From Candidatus Latescibacterota bacterium (GTDB taxonomy: Bacteria; JAAXHH01; JABIQT01): 6,275 bases of DNA. The stretch is taken from contig JABIQT010000335.1 in NCBI GenBank assembly GCA_018667995.1, positions 1 to 6,275 of the forward strand, read 5' to 3'. A program made the translations under genes and the position numbers. Every line of letters begins with the position of its first letter. Within the stretch, counting starts at the first letter, position 1. The notes beneath the pieces are model-generated. The model did not search any database. It saw only the letters and a list, made by a program, of their open reading frames with translations, and was not told the origin of the DNA. Shown one piece after another: positions 1-6,017 of the stretch.

Positions 1-1614
1 AAGATACTCACTTGCCCGATAAGCCAATGCCTGAATCGTCAACGTCGGATTGCTTTTACCTGACGTCACGCAACAGCTTCCATCTACTACAAACAGATTC
101 TTAACATCATGTGATTGGTTGAACTTATTCAATACGGATGTTTGGGGATCATTACCCATCCTGCAGGTACCCATCAGATGTGCATCGCCACGTGGAACAC
201 TGTTTCGCCCAGCGAGTACCTGTGTCGCACCAGCCGCTTCGAGTAGGTCCTTCGCTCTGTTACGAAAGAAATCACCTAGTTTCCACTCGTTGGGGTGGAC
301 GTTATATGTAATGCGGGGAACGGAAAGTCCCCACTTGTCTATCACATTTGGATCCAGGTCGAGCGTATTGGACTCTTGTGAGAGTGATTCCATACTGGTG
401 ACGACCATCATCTTCTTCGCCCAGTTATCTATCATCCATTTCTTTCGTTTCGCACCCCACCTGGGAATGCGAGGCGCGTTCATATTAGAAAAATGTATGG
501 TGCTGCCATCTCCGCGGGGTTCCAGCACACCGCCGCCAAAGAATCCGTTTTTGTCAGGATCTGGTTCATAGAAATCCTGAATGATACGCGTATCCAGCAC
601 GCCCTGGTGTTCATTTAAATCCTTGTCGAAGAATGCCCGTACGACCTGGTAATAGTTGAACAGCAGATGTTTACCAAGCTTTCCGCTCCGATTTGCCAGC
701 CCATCGGGAAACTCCGAAGACTGGGAGGACAGAAGAATGCGCGGTGACATCACACCGTTCCCGCTTACCACTACAACACGAGCTGAAACGGCATGCTCCT
801 GCAGATTCTCATCAAGGTATATCACGCCATTGGCTAGTCCGTTTTTATCTACAGTAACTTCACGCACACAGGCATTGGGTCGCAGCTCACAATTTCCCGT
901 TTTGAGCGCTTTCGGTATATCGGTAACCATCGAACTGGACCGAGCCTCAATAGTACACCCATAGCCTTCACAGAAACCACAGTACATGCTCTTGGCTCTA
1001 CCGTCGTAGTTCTTTGAAGTGATAGCCAATGGTGCAGGATAGGAATGCCATCCCAGCCGAGAAGCGGCATAATCGGCGATGGCGCCGGATGAGGTCCTCG
1101 CAACGGGTGGCATGGGATATTCCCGACGACGCGGTGAGTCGAATGGATTGGCACCCGCAAGACCAGAGACACCGAATTCATACTCGGCCTTCTCGTAATA
1201 GGGCTCAAGGTCCCAGTAATCCAGTGGCCAGTCCTGAACGTCCGCTCCTTCAACTGGACCATACAAGCTGCGCTCTTTGAAATCCGACTCGTGGTATCGC
1301 CAGGCGATCCCGGTCCAATGAATGGTCGCCCCCCCTACATTCGCCTGCATACTGAGAGAAGTCATGGCAGCCGCTTCTTCTTCGGCGGTCTTACGATAAG
1401 TATTCGGTTGATCATACTTGATAAAGCCACGAAGCACATGACACTTCAGTTCATCCTGCTCATAGTCGCGTGTTTTGTGCCAGGGGCCCATTTCAAGGGC
1501 CAGCACCTTCAGGCCCTGCCTGGCCAGTTCCTTCATCATCACCCCGCCAGCAGCACCTGTGCCGACCACGATGACGTCAGGATCATCAATTCGGGGATTG
1601 GGTAAATATGGCAT
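1..1614 (-). CDS. GMC-family FAD dehydrogenase, catalytic subunit (gluconate/glucoside dehydrogenase-like), 3' end cut by window edge
   Basis: The frame stays open for 538 codons from the ATG at 1614 to the window edge, so only the last few residues are probably missing. Seen: an N-terminal dinucleotide-binding motif VVGTGAAGG (residues 16-24), a cysteine motif CGFCEGYGC (C212, C215, C220), a GMC core segment SGNGVMSPRILL, and the C-terminal catalytic part with HLMGTCRMG (H479) and NPTLT (N522). The His/Asn spacing of 43 fits the GMC active-site pair. The start follows a GAGGAG site 5 nt upstream. There is no signal peptide; in known relatives this subunit is carried through the Tat system by its small partner, encoded here 35 nt upstream. 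Family members oxidise sugars, polyols or aldonic acids in the periplasm and pass electrons to cytochrome c. The three cysteines resemble the region that holds a 3Fe-4S cluster in FAD glucose dehydrogenases; that assignment is inference. Substrate unknown. Confidence 0.95.
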   Translation of the reverse strand, partial: MPYLPNPRIDDPDVIVVGTGAAGGVMMKELARQGLKVLALEMGPWHKTRDYEQDELKCHVLRGFIKYDQPNTYRKTAEEEAAAMTSLSMQANVGGATIHWTGIAWRYHESDFKERSLYGPVEGADVQDWPLDYWDLEPYYEKAEYEFGVSGLAGANPFDSPRRREYPMPPVARTSSGAIADYAASRLGWHSYPAPLAITSKNYDGRAKSMYCGFCEGYGCTIEARSSSMVTDIPKALKTGNCELRPNACVREVTVDKNGLANGVIYLDENLQEHAVSARVVVVSGNGVMSPRILLSSQSSEFPDGLANRSGKLGKHLLFNYYQVVRAFFDKDLNEHQGVLDTRIIQDFYEPDPDKNGFFGGGVLEPRGDGSTIHFSNMNAPRIPRWGAKRKKWMIDNWAKKMMVVTSMESLSQESNTLDLDPNVIDKWGLSVPRITYNVHPNEWKLGDFFRNRAKDLLEAAGATQVLAGRNSVPRGDAHLMGTCRMGNDPQTSVLNKFNQSHDVKNLFVVDGSCCVTSGKSNPTLTIQALAYRASEYL

Positions 1615-1649
1615 CTGTACTCCTCAAAAGTAGAAAACTTAACCTTGCC

Positions 1650-2306
1650 CTAACCTTCTTTTCCCGGGCCGGTATATGGTACAAAAGCGGGATACTCGAT
1701 CTCGGGAATAATAGCATCGTAATAACCAAAAGGCGGATCGTAGCCAAACGGTTTGAGACCCGGAAAATTGATGAGCTTCCATCCGACCTCATTGCGGTTG
1801 CCGCCATATTTTGGATCGGCGAACATCCCTTCCATCGTATGCTCAATCATATGACGAAGCCATGCTCTACTCGTCATATCGGCTTCGGCCGGCCATTCCG
1901 GTGGATTCTGACGGCTGTCCAAAGCGGAAAGTACCGCATCCTGAAGATCTGATGTCAATTCGACAAATGGCTTACCCTGAGTAGCTGACGAAAAGGTATC
2001 CAGCCAAACCAGACCGTGATCGTAGATCTCTTTTTCGTGCACATGATGCGTGGCTAAGGCACGGTCGATGTATACGACCACCTGCGCATCTGTAGCACCG
2101 GGACCACTGGAGTCTCTGGGCATTATCCGCTCAGCCAGGGCCACAACAGTTGCTGCCTGCTGGTCTGTCAGAACTTCAAATTCGGCTGTTTCCTGGGCGG
2201 TTATTCTGCCAGGGCCACCCAGCACACCCAGCGACACTATCCCACCGGTTACTGCCGCGGATCGAGTCAGAAATTCTCGACGTGAAAGGTCAGACTTTTT
2301 TCTCAT
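1650..2306 (-). CDS. Tat-exported gluconate 2-dehydrogenase subunit 3 family protein (small subunit of the GMC dehydrogenase)
   Basis: A 218-residue protein. It starts with a twin-arginine signal, SRREFL at residues 8-13, followed by a hydrophobic stretch to about residue 30 and a likely cleavage after ITA (residue 37). The mature part carries family hallmarks: AERIMPRDSSGPGATDA (about 58-74) and MEGMFADPKYGGN with GWKLINFPG (about 158-183). The frame is open further upstream, to an ATG at 2453. The start at 2306 is chosen because it places the Tat motif at the N-terminus and has a GGAG site 9 nt upstream; the longer form would bury the signal peptide and overlap the preceding gene. In characterised relatives this subunit is the Tat carrier and maturation partner of the flavoprotein, which follows here after 35 nt. 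The two almost certainly form one complex. Confidence 0.95.
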   Translation of the reverse strand: MRKKSDLSRREFLTRSAAVTGGIVSLGVLGGPGRITAQETAEFEVLTDQQAATVVALAERIMPRDSSGPGATDAQVVVYIDRALATHHVHEKEIYDHGLVWLDTFSSATQGKPFVELTSDLQDAVLSALDSRQNPPEWPAEADMTSRAWLRHMIEHTMEGMFADPKYGGNRNEVGWKLINFPGLKPFGYDPPFGYYDAIIPEIEYPAFVPYTGPGKEG

Positions 2307-2394
2307 TTTGTTGCACTCCGGCGATTTGAGAGATTTCGCAGGCTTATATGCCGTGCAGGTTTGCTCCATAAAATGTGAGCAGCAGATTTCCGGG

Positions 2395-2607
2395 CTATTC
2401 CTGGGAGGAGCGATTGCCCCAGAAAAGGAGAAGGATATAGTAGAATACTCCAAGCATCAGAAGTCCCAAGCCAATCGTCATGTACCAGATAATGGAGGTA
2501 GGATGGGTCCAGAACAGCGTAACTAATTCAATGACAAATCCAGCAAGGATAAGTCCACCCGCCAGGCGAACACCCTTGTCAAAGGGTAGTAACAGCGATG
2601 CTATCAT
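2395..2607 (-). CDS. Small two-helix membrane protein of unknown function, translationally coupled to the tetrahaem cytochrome
   Basis: A 70-residue protein with two hydrophobic segments, roughly residues 13-33 and 39-63, joined by a short WTHPTS turn, and a polar end GNRSSQE. I do not recognise a family. It is likely real because its ATG overlaps the stop codon of the upstream cytochrome gene (ATGA at 2604-2607) and it has a perfect AGGAGG site 7 nt upstream, embedded in the last cytochrome codons. Only 88 nt separate it from the Tat-signal subunit downstream. Its position between a membrane cytochrome and the dehydrogenase subunits suggests a membrane anchor, assembly factor or quinone-site partner. 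That role is inference; no cofactor ligand motif is visible. Confidence 0.72.
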   Translation of the reverse strand: MIASLLLPFDKGVRLAGGLILAGFVIELVTLFWTHPTSIIWYMTIGLGLLMLGVFYYILLLFWGNRSSQE

Positions 2608-3257
2608 TCATCAGCCTCCTGCCAGAATTCATCCTCGTCGTAGTCGTCCAATTCATCGATATTATGCTGCACGTCGTGGCACTTACTCTCCATGCAAGAA
2701 AGTGCATTGGCGTTTATCCGGGCCAACATGTCATCTTCCTTACGATGATGCCGACTCTCGTAGTAGCTCCGTGCACCTTCGTGACATTTCAGACACTCGC
2801 GATTATTGAACGGCTCATACAGCTCGATATCGAGCGGTTCAGGCATATCACCGAGATACTGGACATACACATGTTTCAGACCTCTGATTTTGGCAGTTAC
2901 ACTACCGTACCAGACATAGTCTGAATGACAGGTATAACATGATTTATCGCGTGAAACGAGGTAATTCTGGAAGTGATCTGCGGGGACAAACTCATTGTCA
3001 TCCACATGGAGACTCTTACCCCAATCATCCATGATGTGACAGGAGAGGCAATACTCGGTAGTCTGCGCATTATCGTTGTGAATCGCGCCTCCGAGACCAC
3101 CTACCCCAAGAGGGAGCAAGAAGAGGGCAAAGAAACCGAGGATCTGCCCAGCACCGTTACGTAGAATCGCAGGCTTGAAGATCACAATGCAGACAAGCGC
3201 CATGGCCAGTAAAATCGGTCCTACAACTAGACTTGTTGGCACGGACGGTGGAAGCAT
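2604..3257 (-). CDS. NapC/NirT-like membrane-anchored tetrahaem cytochrome c
   Basis: A 217-residue protein. Two hydrophobic stretches near the N-terminus (about 11-28 and 38-58) precede four haem-binding sites: CLSCH (C70-H74), CYTCH (C107-H111), CLKCH (C155-H159) and CMESKCH (C188-H194). The first site reads CLSCHIM, the CxxCHxM signature of NapC/NrfH haem 1. The segment around 116-136 (VWYGSVTAKIRGLKHVY) is also typical of the family. The fourth site is CX4CH instead of the usual CXXCH. NapC/NirT proteins move electrons between the quinone pool and periplasmic partners. Here the neighbours suggest a link to the GMC dehydrogenase, in either direction. The tail (about 201-217) is strongly acidic. 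The start has an AGGA site 9 nt upstream and lies 28 nt after the monohaem cytochrome stop. The second hydrophobic segment could be a true helix or part of the haem 1 region; NapC itself has one anchor. Confidence 0.92.
   Translation of the reverse strand: MLPPSVPTSLVVGPILLAMALVCIVIFKPAILRNGAGQILGFFALFLLPLGVGGLGGAIHNDNAQTTEYCLSCHIMDDWGKSLHVDDNEFVPADHFQNYLVSRDKSCYTCHSDYVWYGSVTAKIRGLKHVYVQYLGDMPEPLDIELYEPFNNRECLKCHEGARSYYESRHHRKEDDMLARINANALSCMESKCHDVQHNIDELDDYDEDEFWQEADE
2615..2620 (-). promoter_or_regulatory. Ribosome binding site of the small membrane protein, inside the cytochrome coding end
   Basis: A perfect AGGAGG lies 7 nt before the ATG at 2607, within codons for the last residues (QEADE) of the tetrahaem cytochrome. 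Together with the ATGA stop/start overlap it indicates translational coupling, and it is the main reason to accept the 70-residue frame as a gene. Confidence 0.8.
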
Positions 3258-3285
3258 GTATCAAAATCCTCGTTGGATGTACGAA

Positions 3286-3687
3286 CTACTTGGGTTCCGT
3301 TTTCAGCGTGGACAGCCATGAGGTGAGGGTCTCGAACTCTTCATCGGTACCTCGAAACTTCTTCTCATGCTTCTCACCCTCGTATTTGACCTTCTTCTTC
3401 AGGTACAGCTTGATCCAATCCTGTTCGTGCTCAAGGCCCACACCCGATAAGTCTGGGGCATCCTCATCGATCTCATCTGGCTCGAGATCGCCTACGTCCA
3501 ACTCAACCTTGGCTACTTGGATGGAATGGCAGCCCTGACATTCATGGTCCATAAATATGGCGGAAGCAGCAGCGGCGTTGTCCTGAGCAAGTGAAACACC
3601 TGTGGAAAACAACCCGGCCAGCATCAGTCCTGCCACGGCAGTCACACCAAAACAAACTACAGCTATGGAGGTAGTGTCGCGTTTCAT
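3286..3687 (-). CDS. Periplasmic monohaem cytochrome c
   Basis: A 133-residue protein with a Sec signal peptide (positive MKR start, hydrophobic to about residue 30, likely cleavage after SLA at residue 34) and one haem site CQGCH (C50, C53, H54). It is a small class I-type cytochrome with the family pattern APDLSGVG, then DWIKLYLKKK, KHEKKFRG, and a last helix with LTSWLSTLK. No methionine occurs after the haem site, so the usual Met axial ligand is absent; H87 or H107 are the candidates. An acidic loop (about 63-78) follows the haem. The frame is open upstream to an ATG at 3750, but 3687 is chosen because it gives a normal signal peptide and has a GGAG site 10 nt upstream. It is 28 nt ahead of the tetrahaem cytochrome and is the likely soluble electron carrier of the module. 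The 153-nt gap to the globin gene shows neither a convincing terminator nor a convincing promoter. Confidence 0.92.
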   Translation of the reverse strand: MKRDTTSIAVVCFGVTAVAGLMLAGLFSTGVSLAQDNAAAASAIFMDHECQGCHSIQVAKVELDVGDLEPDEIDEDAPDLSGVGLEHEQDWIKLYLKKKVKYEGEKHEKKFRGTDEEFETLTSWLSTLKTEPK

Positions 3688-3840
3688 TATTGGATTGCTC
3701 CTTGCGAAATTCGATTTGTTTCCCGATCTCAACGGACAGATTAGACTCAATCCGCCAATTCAAAGCATTCCCGATCGGTAAGGTCCGCATCTGATCTGAA
3801 AGCGTACTGAAGATTCCAGGCCGAGTCAGCTATTGGTCGA

Positions 3841-4350
3841 TTAGGAATCGCCGTCCATCGAACTGGCAGTTTTCAATTTCAATTTAACCAGCAACTCGTC
3901 CTTCTCTGTTTGCTCAAATTCGAACCAATCCATTGCCATGCCCAAGTGCTCAGCGATTATGGCCAGATCGTCGTCCGTCATACCCATGTCTGTGTGTAGG
4001 ATGCGTAACGTTTTCCCCATAAACATCGGCCCACCCGAGGCGTCAGAGAGTTGCCCGACCAACTGCAGCCGATATGCGGCTTTGTCGGTATCCGAGAAGT
4101 GCTTGCTTATTTTTTCGTCTTGCATTACCCGGGCGGTGAATTCACTCACAACACCCTTAATAGCAGTTTTGCCACCCCAACGCTCATAAAGAACCTTGGA
4201 TTCCATACCCTCTGCGCCATCCTCTTCGGCCATCTCGTCAGCATCTTCCCACTCCATATCCGGGTCGTCGTGCTGGGCAAAGGTAGTGGACGGCCCCATC
4301 ATCAGACATAGGGCTGTGCAAACTGCAAATAGCGACAAAAAACGCTTCAT
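3841..4350 (-). CDS. Exported group 1-like truncated haemoglobin with acidic N-terminal spacer
   Basis: A 169-residue protein. A Sec signal peptide (residues 1-25, likely cleavage TFA/Q) is followed by a very acidic spacer (about 27-50) and a truncated globin domain from LYERWGGKTAIKGVV (about 54-68) to the end. H119 (in LRILHTDMGMT) fits the proximal F8 histidine, F85 the CD1 phenylalanine, and SGGP followed by MG at about 105-112 matches the E-F region of TrHbN proteins. By alignment with the mycobacterial TrHbN sequence as I remember it, the distal residues TyrB10 and GlnE11 are Thr72 and Leu97 here, so NO dioxygenase chemistry cannot be assumed. Most truncated globins are cytoplasmic; this one should act in the periplasm. 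A GGAGG site lies 7 nt before the start. It precedes the cytochrome genes in the same orientation, which suggests a role in redox protection, gas sensing or haem handling for that cluster (inference). Confidence 0.92.
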   Translation of the reverse strand: MKRFLSLFAVCTALCLMMGPSTTFAQHDDPDMEWEDADEMAEEDGAEGMESKVLYERWGGKTAIKGVVSEFTARVMQDEKISKHFSDTDKAAYRLQLVGQLSDASGGPMFMGKTLRILHTDMGMTDDDLAIIAEHLGMAMDWFEFEQTEKDELLVKLKLKTASSMDGDS

Positions 4351-4542: not shown

Positions 4543-5061
4543 CTACTGGCCGCGATAGGCAATGATGTCGATTTCTACACTCGTATTCAACACTACGCCT
4601 GATTCAATCGTTGTCCGTGCCGGAGGGTCCTTGGTCCAGTACGTCTGATACACTTCATTCATTCCAGAATAGTCTTCGAGAGTCTTAAGATATACCGTGG
4701 TCCGTACAACGTCATCCATATCAAGCCCTGATTTAGCCAGGGCCGTCTTCAGGTTATCCAATACGTATTTGGTCTCTGCCGTTACACCACCTGGAACGAC
4801 TTTGCCCTGTCGGTATGCTATCTTGCCAGAGAGAAACACAAAATCACCAGCCTCGACTGATTCACTATAGACCTGATTCGCGTTGATGGCCTTTTTTCCA
4901 CTCTTTTTTGATTGAGATTCCGCCGGAATCACGCCATATCCCAGTGAAGCAACCGCCAGCGCCACCACCGTAGCTGCGATTACAAGCCCCTTGGATAAAC
5001 CGATGGTCAATTCTACCGTATCATCTTCCTTCCGTGCCCGCATCCTGATCAAAGACTTCAT
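4543..5061 (-). CDS. RidA/YjgF-family protein with N-terminal membrane anchor
   Basis: A 172-residue protein. After a basic N-terminus (MKSLIRMRARK) comes a hydrophobic segment at about 20-43, a short polar linker, and a full Rid domain from about residue 58 to the end. Domain marks include FLSGKIAY, VLDNLKTALAKSGLDMDDVVRTTVYLK, and PPARTTIE near the C-terminus. R149 corresponds to E. coli RidA Arg105, needed for imine/enamine hydrolysis. The E. coli Cys107 position is Thr and the Glu120 position is Asp (D165), so the pocket is related but not identical. RidA is normally cytoplasmic; the positive-inside rule places this domain in the periplasm, tethered. Two ATGs compete, at 5067 and 5061. 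GAAGGG at 5070-5075 is 2 nt from the first and 8 nt from the second, so 5061 is chosen. The gene lies alone between a terminator and the globin cluster, in the same direction. The substrate is unknown. Confidence 0.92.
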   Translation of the reverse strand: MKSLIRMRARKEDDTVELTIGLSKGLVIAATVVALAVASLGYGVIPAESQSKKSGKKAINANQVYSESVEAGDFVFLSGKIAYRQGKVVPGGVTAETKYVLDNLKTALAKSGLDMDDVVRTTVYLKTLEDYSGMNEVYQTYWTKDPPARTTIESGVVLNTSVEIDIIAYRGQ

Positions 5062-5069
5062 GAGCATTT

Positions 5070-5336: not shown

Positions 5337-6017
5337 TTAACGAGAGGCCAAGTTGTTGGAGATAGCCAAGTTGTTGGAGATAGCGAATTTGCCGATATAG
5401 GCACTGCGCTTATTCACTGTCTTCCACTTTGAGTTTAAGTCTGCTCCACTGTAGGAACTCCTAGCCATCTGTACGAGTCGGACAGGTGTATCTCCTGCGA
5501 AGGCCCCATACCAGACCTGCGGATCACAAGAATACTCATGGTCGGCCTCAACCATGGTTCGGGTGACTACCTGGACCTCGCCGGGAATGAGAATCTTGAA
5601 GGCATCATCTCCTGTCTGGTCGAAAGAGATATCAGCCACTAGTACAGCCCTTATCTCTCCAAACACGTCGCTGTACCGCGAGGAAAAGGTGTCCCTGAGA
5701 TTAACCATCTGCTTTGCAGTCGCTCGGGAATCAATATACAGGACGGTTTCACGGGTATGATTTCCTAGCTGCAAGTTTCCTTTGCCCAGTACTACCGCCA
5801 CGACAGCAATGTCTGCCAAGTTGTCGCCATCAAGGCGCCAGGCCATAACAGCCCGATTTCCATCATATACAGCCTCAGCCGAATAGGTACAACCTCCGGC
5901 CATAATATGGTTTGAGCGTACCTCTACGTAGTCACCTGACAGTACGGCGTTGCCCGCATAAGCTGTATGAGCAAGCAGTAGAGCGAACCCCAGAGCAGTA
6001 GCGAATGCTTTTATCAT
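5337..6017 (-). CDS. Secreted DUF1326-like protein of unknown function
   Basis: A 226-residue protein with a Sec signal peptide (1-21, likely cleavage AYA/G). The mature part begins with GDYVEVRSNHIMAGGC (about 28-43), followed by AVMAWRLDGDNLADIAVVAVV (in the 56-76 region), LYIDSRATAKQ (about 93-103), a SCDPQVWYG segment (about 163-171), and an ending KWKT..KRSAYIGKF (about 197-211). These segments resemble, from memory, secreted DUF1326 proteins, which open with a GxYxEARS..TGPC pattern and close with a KRS-type strand. Two cysteines remain in the mature protein, C43 and C164, at positions that look family-conserved; they could pair or bind a metal. The biochemical role of the family is not established. 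The C-terminus carries a duplicated AISNNL hexapeptide beyond the point where I expect the domain to end. The start has AGGAGG 5 nt upstream and a good promoter further up. Confidence 0.78.
   Translation of the reverse strand: MIKAFATALGFALLLAHTAYAGNAVLSGDYVEVRSNHIMAGGCTYSAEAVYDGNRAVMAWRLDGDNLADIAVVAVVLGKGNLQLGNHTRETVLYIDSRATAKQMVNLRDTFSSRYSDVFGEIRAVLVADISFDQTGDDAFKILIPGEVQVVTRTMVEADHEYSCDPQVWYGAFAGDTPVRLVQMARSSYSGADLNSKWKTVNKRSAYIGKFAISNNLAISNNLASR
5347..5384. repeat. 18-bp tandem duplication in the 3' end of the DUF1326-like gene
   Basis: The unit CAAGTTGTTGGAGATAGC occurs twice without a mismatch (5349-5366 and 5367-5384), and two more bases on the left also match (38 bp, period 18). It is in frame and doubles the hexapeptide AISNNL, residues 212-217 and 218-223, just before the stop. 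The lack of any mismatch suggests a recent slippage event. Confidence 0.95.

Follow-up and report, generated by a model that had tools for sequence, protein, structure and literature searches.

A GMC dehydrogenase gene pair in conserved order with a portable NapC/NrfH-like cytochrome cassette in a marine bacterium, and its possible link to the quinone pool

Through which partners does a GMC-family dehydrogenase pass on the electrons of its substrate when its gene cluster lacks the triple-haem membrane subunit of the fructose, gluconate and glucose dehydrogenases? The question is raised by a contig of 6,275 bp (C796), analysed here as a whole and called the window, from the assembly of a marine bacterium (G000, Candidatus Latescibacterota; 6.06 Mb, 85% complete). 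Genes were called from a listing of open reading frames (ORFs) and assigned to families with Pfam. They are transcribed from the minus strand in the order DUF1326 protein, Rid-family protein, truncated globin, monohaem cytochrome c, NapC/NrfH-like tetrahaem cytochrome, a 70-residue membrane protein, Gluconate_2-dh3 small subunit and GMC catalytic subunit (Table 1). The reading that we favour, with moderate confidence, is that the last two make up a quinone-linked periplasmic dehydrogenase whose electrons are fed through a NapC-like cassette.

We found five of these genes, from the monohaem cytochrome c to the GMC gene, in identical order in another genome of the same order that is placed in a different family (G013; CAJXCW010000003.1, Tara sample ERR599008), with identities of 80% for the GMC subunit, 66% for the small subunit, 66% for the small membrane protein, 76% for the tetrahaem cytochrome and 72% for the monohaem cytochrome c. 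In the window, 28 bases separate the monohaem cytochrome c gene from the tetrahaem gene, the latter overlaps the 70-residue protein gene at an ATGA, and gaps of 88 and then 35 bases lead to the GMC gene. Because their order is conserved at 66-80% identity in a second genome, the five genes, judged by sequence, very probably form one unit; chance is thereby excluded for these five but not for the globin. The latter gene, separated by 153 bases from the monohaem cytochrome c gene downstream of it, has homologues in 14 of 15 relatives, where they lie elsewhere in the genome; at the loci read (L120-L125) they have HAD hydrolase genes alongside, and in G001, G011 and G013 larC comes next. We rejected the globin as a member of the unit because of this order-wide placement, and the upstream neighbour of the five-gene row in G013 is a gene for an aminotransferase with a twin-arginine translocation (Tat) signal, with no globin. 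The six-gene functional unit proposed in a preliminary description of this DNA is accordingly reduced to five: all six were found together nowhere else, and five of the six in one other genome.

The enzyme itself is of no new kind, and it is the electron-transfer partners that set the unit apart from known GMC dehydrogenase complexes. The FAD (flavin adenine dinucleotide) subunit and its Tat-signal partner are standard, as first described, given their GMC and Gluconate_2-dh3 Pfam matches and the twin-arginine signal; the small subunit, whose gene adjoins the GMC gene, is the sole PF13618 protein found in G000. The closest PDB entries to the GMC protein are the large subunits of fructose dehydrogenase (FDH) and glucose dehydrogenase (GDH), by match to which H479 and N522 are the catalytic His/Asn pair, so that the catalytic residues are intact, and H99 corresponds to a histidine near the FAD. 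C212, C215 and C220 lie at the position of the 3Fe-4S cysteines of FDH and GDH (see PMC6719666 for the structural reference of this site); C215 and C220 align with FDH and were kept in 40 of 40 aligned GMC homologues, while C212 is shifted, the spacing being C-x2-C-x4-C in the window versus C-x5-C-x3-C in the heterotrimeric FAD dehydrogenases. A GMC subunit with the His/Asn pair and a probable Cys cluster, together with a Tat small subunit, is what the window shares with FdhSCL, the B. cepacia FAD-GDH and gluconate 2-dehydrogenase. In contrast, the Met-ligated, triple-haem cytochrome subunit of the FDH/GDH type was found neither in the window, whose contig ends at the GMC gene, nor in the sister cluster, nor adjoining some 38 GMC homologue loci, nor among the 8 PF00034 matches of the 85%-complete G000. 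In its place stand the NapC/NrfH-like tetrahaem cytochrome, the monohaem cytochrome c and the small membrane protein, to which the sister genome adds a pentahaem cytochrome c. No report of a GMC protein paired with NapC or with multihaem cytochromes was found in the literature searched.

The pentahaem gene was located by listing all ORFs containing CXXCH. It encodes a 273-residue exported cytochrome with four CXXCH motifs and one CX3CH (L013:2163-2981), starts 16 bp after the GMC gene of G013 and is followed by a hairpin, read by eye, and a T-run; the protein matches carrier-type cytochromes and no catalytic reductase family. Its position is exactly where the window contig ends, the window GMC gene itself running off the left end some 10 C-terminal residues short of its relative. 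The unit thus probably extends to a pentahaem cytochrome gene beyond the end of the window contig, and because G013 carries this gene right after GMC, the "missing" cytochrome subunit of the window may simply be out of sight, and not of the triple-haem FdhC type. The idea that NapC and monohaem cytochromes replace the triple-haem subunit therefore keeps its negative half, the absence of the latter, but is weakened in its positive half, and the partner that might have been sought left of the window is, in G013, multihaem rather than triple-haem. An orthologue sought in G000 yielded only a paralogue of 33% identity on C391, which follows a cytochrome b gene (L173:1982-2776). Genus g3 has pentahaem orthologues with five CXXCH motifs that lie by themselves some 60 kb away from GMC, and a pentahaem paralogue in a Rieske-cytochrome b cluster (L170, approximately 11650-12050); next to cytochrome b, such a paralogue may take the position of cytochrome c1.

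The tetrahaem protein passed the PF03264 cut-off and missed those of the NCBIfam NapC, NrfH and TorC models, and a family profile search of the PDB returned NrfH (2j7a) as its sole match. Its four c-type haem sites comprise three CXXCH and one CX4CH (CMESKCH); the first reads CXXCHXM, and the last, the CX4CH, aligned with a CXXCH of its relatives. K123, invariant in 10 homologues, was placed by a weak profile match on K82 of NrfH, the quinone-site lysine near haem 1. Four haems, the CXXCHXM first haem, the order of the periplasmic domain and, probably, the quinone-site Lys are features in common with NrfH, CymA, ImoA and cM552; the window protein differs from them in its CX4CH last haem, in His129 where NrfH has Asp89, in its GMC dehydrogenase partner and in having two N-terminal hydrophobic helices (residues 8-27 and 35-62 by alignment and AlphaFold model) where NapC/NrfH proteins have one. 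On sequence grounds these two helices make it a distinct subfamily of the NapC/NrfH superfamily. The original NapC/NirT-like label hence holds for the family and the four haem sites, but not for a canonical set of motifs or a single anchor.

In the monohaem cytochrome c, an alignment of 8 homologues showed G-x-K-H-x3-F-[KR]-G to be invariant close to the C-terminus, roughly where class I cytochromes carry their Met ligand, so that a bis-His haem is possible. The loss of the Met is no proof of a low potential, because MtoD, a bis-His monohaem cytochrome c thought to serve an oxidase, has a high one (+155 mV; PMC13390432). In the Mto pathway of Sideroxydans, ImoA, with its monohaem partner PmcA, has been proposed to be a quinone reductase (PMC13390432), and the window may resemble this pair in that a periplasmic monohaem cytochrome c and a membrane tetrahaem cytochrome would exchange electrons with quinone; the axial ligand is Met in PmcA and His at that place in the window protein, and the electron donor is an outer-membrane conduit for ImoA-PmcA but would be a dehydrogenase in the window. 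Adjacency of the monohaem cytochrome c gene to the NapC-like gene is kept in several phyla, as is the position of the two-helix protein gene after the latter. In G011, which has no NapC-like gene, the monohaem cytochrome c gene carries an in-frame stop after the signal peptide (L119:9165-9566).

A search of 384 genomes for the NapC-like gene gave matches in 17, including G340, a distant one whose neighbourhood was left unread, and G190, of high G+C and uninterpretable; it was seen beside a GMC gene in G000 and G013 only. In G001, G078, G211 and G058, the genes of a monohaem cytochrome c, a NapC-like cytochrome and a small two-helix protein come after that of a monohaem barrel-like protein (Table 1), which runs from ..YKTSCxTCHTxFPRLNYYGERF.. 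to a terminal ..R.MF in a Cyc2-like layout, ends in an outer-membrane-barrel-like Phe in G001, G078 and G211 (the end is masked in G058) and had no match in Pfam, NCBIfam or the PDB. The monohaem c/NapC pair adjoins a decahaem cytochrome and an MtrB/PioB-like barrel in G098 (L091) and other multihaem cytochromes in G145 (L094), and in genus g3 (L016) the NapC-like and small membrane genes, without the monohaem cytochrome c, follow the gene of an octahaem cytochrome related to hydroxylamine oxidoreductase (HAO). Together, the monohaem cytochrome c, NapC-like and small membrane protein genes form a portable cassette, and because it adjoins barrels, conduits, octahaem or GMC genes, the same quinone-side hardware appears to serve several partners. 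We tentatively suggest, as an idea that could well prove wrong, that the trio is an unnamed, interchangeable quinone module across phyla, plugged into outer-membrane conduits, HAO-like enzymes or GMC dehydrogenases, the window being the first example observed of quinone reduction by a GMC enzyme via a NapC-family cytochrome.

Table 1 Features of the window and loci of the cassette elsewhere
Feature	Coordinates	Strand	Family match or distribution
GMC/FAD catalytic subunit	1614-<1	minus	PF05199 7e-22, PF00732 2e-9
Gluconate_2-dh3 small ("hitchhiker") subunit, twin-arginine signal SRREFL	2306-1650	minus	PF13618 6e-32
70-aa two-helix membrane protein	2607-2395	minus	no family match
NapC/NirT-like tetrahaem cytochrome	3257-2604	minus	PF03264, 29.7 bits vs cut-off 24.1
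Monohaem cytochrome c, exported, CQGCH	3687-3286	minus	PF00034 2.7e-6
Truncated globin, exported	4350-3841	minus	PF01152
Monohaem-barrel cassette loci	L092:5798-8312, L093:5962-8532, L097:1-2632, L014:9386-12157		several phyla

In the route that we favour, the GMC subunit, exported by the Tat small subunit, would oxidise a sugar-like or other alcohol substrate in the periplasm, and electrons would pass from the FAD to the 3Fe-4S cluster, then to the periplasmic haems, those of the monohaem cytochrome c being joined at least in the sister genome by those of the pentahaem cytochrome, and from there through the membrane tetrahaem cytochrome with its two-helix partner into the quinone pool. The cassette would stand in for the triple-haem membrane subunit: an electron-transfer cassette that already existed may have been re-plumbed so that electrons from organic substrates reach the respiratory chain. 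For the reversed flow into quinone that was considered at the outset, the NapC/NrfH superfamily offers a precedent in cytochrome cM552, the quinone reductase behind HAO (PMC3772326). By analogy, the nitrifiers' HAO-cM552 couple and the window would have in common a NapC-family quinone reductase behind a periplasmic dehydrogenase; the donor enzymes are unrelated, and relatives of this order repeat the HAO-cM552 theme with NapC-like and small membrane genes beside an HAO-like octahaem gene.

Electrons might instead bypass quinone, with the GMC enzyme reducing the pentahaem or monohaem cytochrome c, a bc-type complex or cytochrome oxidase serving as their high-potential acceptor, and the NapC-like protein doing no more than balance the pool. 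LacABC-type GMC enzymes use soluble cytochrome c, the pentahaem paralogues beside cytochrome b in G000 and g3 fit such a path, and the example of MtoD shows that a bis-His haem need not have a low potential; however, in both genomes the tetrahaem gene separates the GMC pair from the monohaem cytochrome c gene, in the window it overlaps that of the small membrane protein, and we regard the bypass as unlikely. The opposite direction, in which the NapC-like protein would oxidise quinol to supply a reductase, either the GMC subunit or the pentahaem cytochrome, we hold to be very unlikely. It is true that NapC/NrfH proteins usually oxidise quinol. CymA and ImoA in Shewanella are cases in point (PMC13390432). 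Against this, the catalytic residues of the GMC subunit are intact and the pentahaem protein resembles carriers rather than reductases. To our knowledge, no GMC enzyme acts as a physiological reductase.

Several observations in the rest of the order weigh against our favoured reading. The GMC orthologue was present in 13 of 14 other order genomes searched, and in 11 of the 13, whose surroundings were read, GMC and small subunit are paired with no cassette cytochrome gene within 5 kb, standing beside the Tat-signal aminotransferase or alone; the enzyme can therefore work without the cassette. Seven order genomes have no NapC-like gene, the arrangement of five genes is known from two genomes alone, and the AlphaFold model of the tetrahaem protein, built from two sequences, has a predicted local distance difference test score (pLDDT) of 40, with the helices alone usable and a haem domain that failed at about 30. 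The separation of cassette and GMC pair in those relatives would suit an accidental neighbourhood, in which the cassette came to lie next to the pair in a single lineage, each serving a pathway of its own. Yet the order was kept, with short gaps, across different families, a haem gene flanks the GMC pair on each side in G013, and the barrel gene was not found in G000 or G013, leaving the cassette no such partner there; we consider this account quite unlikely.

If the favoured route is true, NapC-family membrane cytochromes can act as quinone reductases for carbohydrate- or alcohol-type dehydrogenases, and a single small cassette has been exchanged between organic oxidation, octahaem enzymes of the nitrogen type and extracellular electron transfer. 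A haem partner of another type is of practical interest too, since GMC dehydrogenase complexes find use in biosensors.

The aminotransferase mentioned above is HisC-like with a Tat-type signal, and it is unusual for a pyridoxal phosphate (PLP) enzyme to be periplasmic; its gene adjoins the GMC pair at L013:6987-8252, L073:2228-3499 and L080:5178-6455 and is the downstream neighbour of the pair in G001 and G007. An exported Rid-family protein is encoded directly after GMC in G205 (L084:8830-9291), and the Rid-family protein of the window (4543-5067), upstream of the globin, is exported or membrane-anchored. The nearby Rid gene and the relatives' aminotransferase hint, as a lead only, at an amino-containing substrate. 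Scanning the window for promoters and terminators gave no clear excess over shuffled sequence. The exported DUF1326 protein carries a short C-terminal repeat, FAISNNLAISNNLASR (window 5337-5400), perhaps a recent small duplication.

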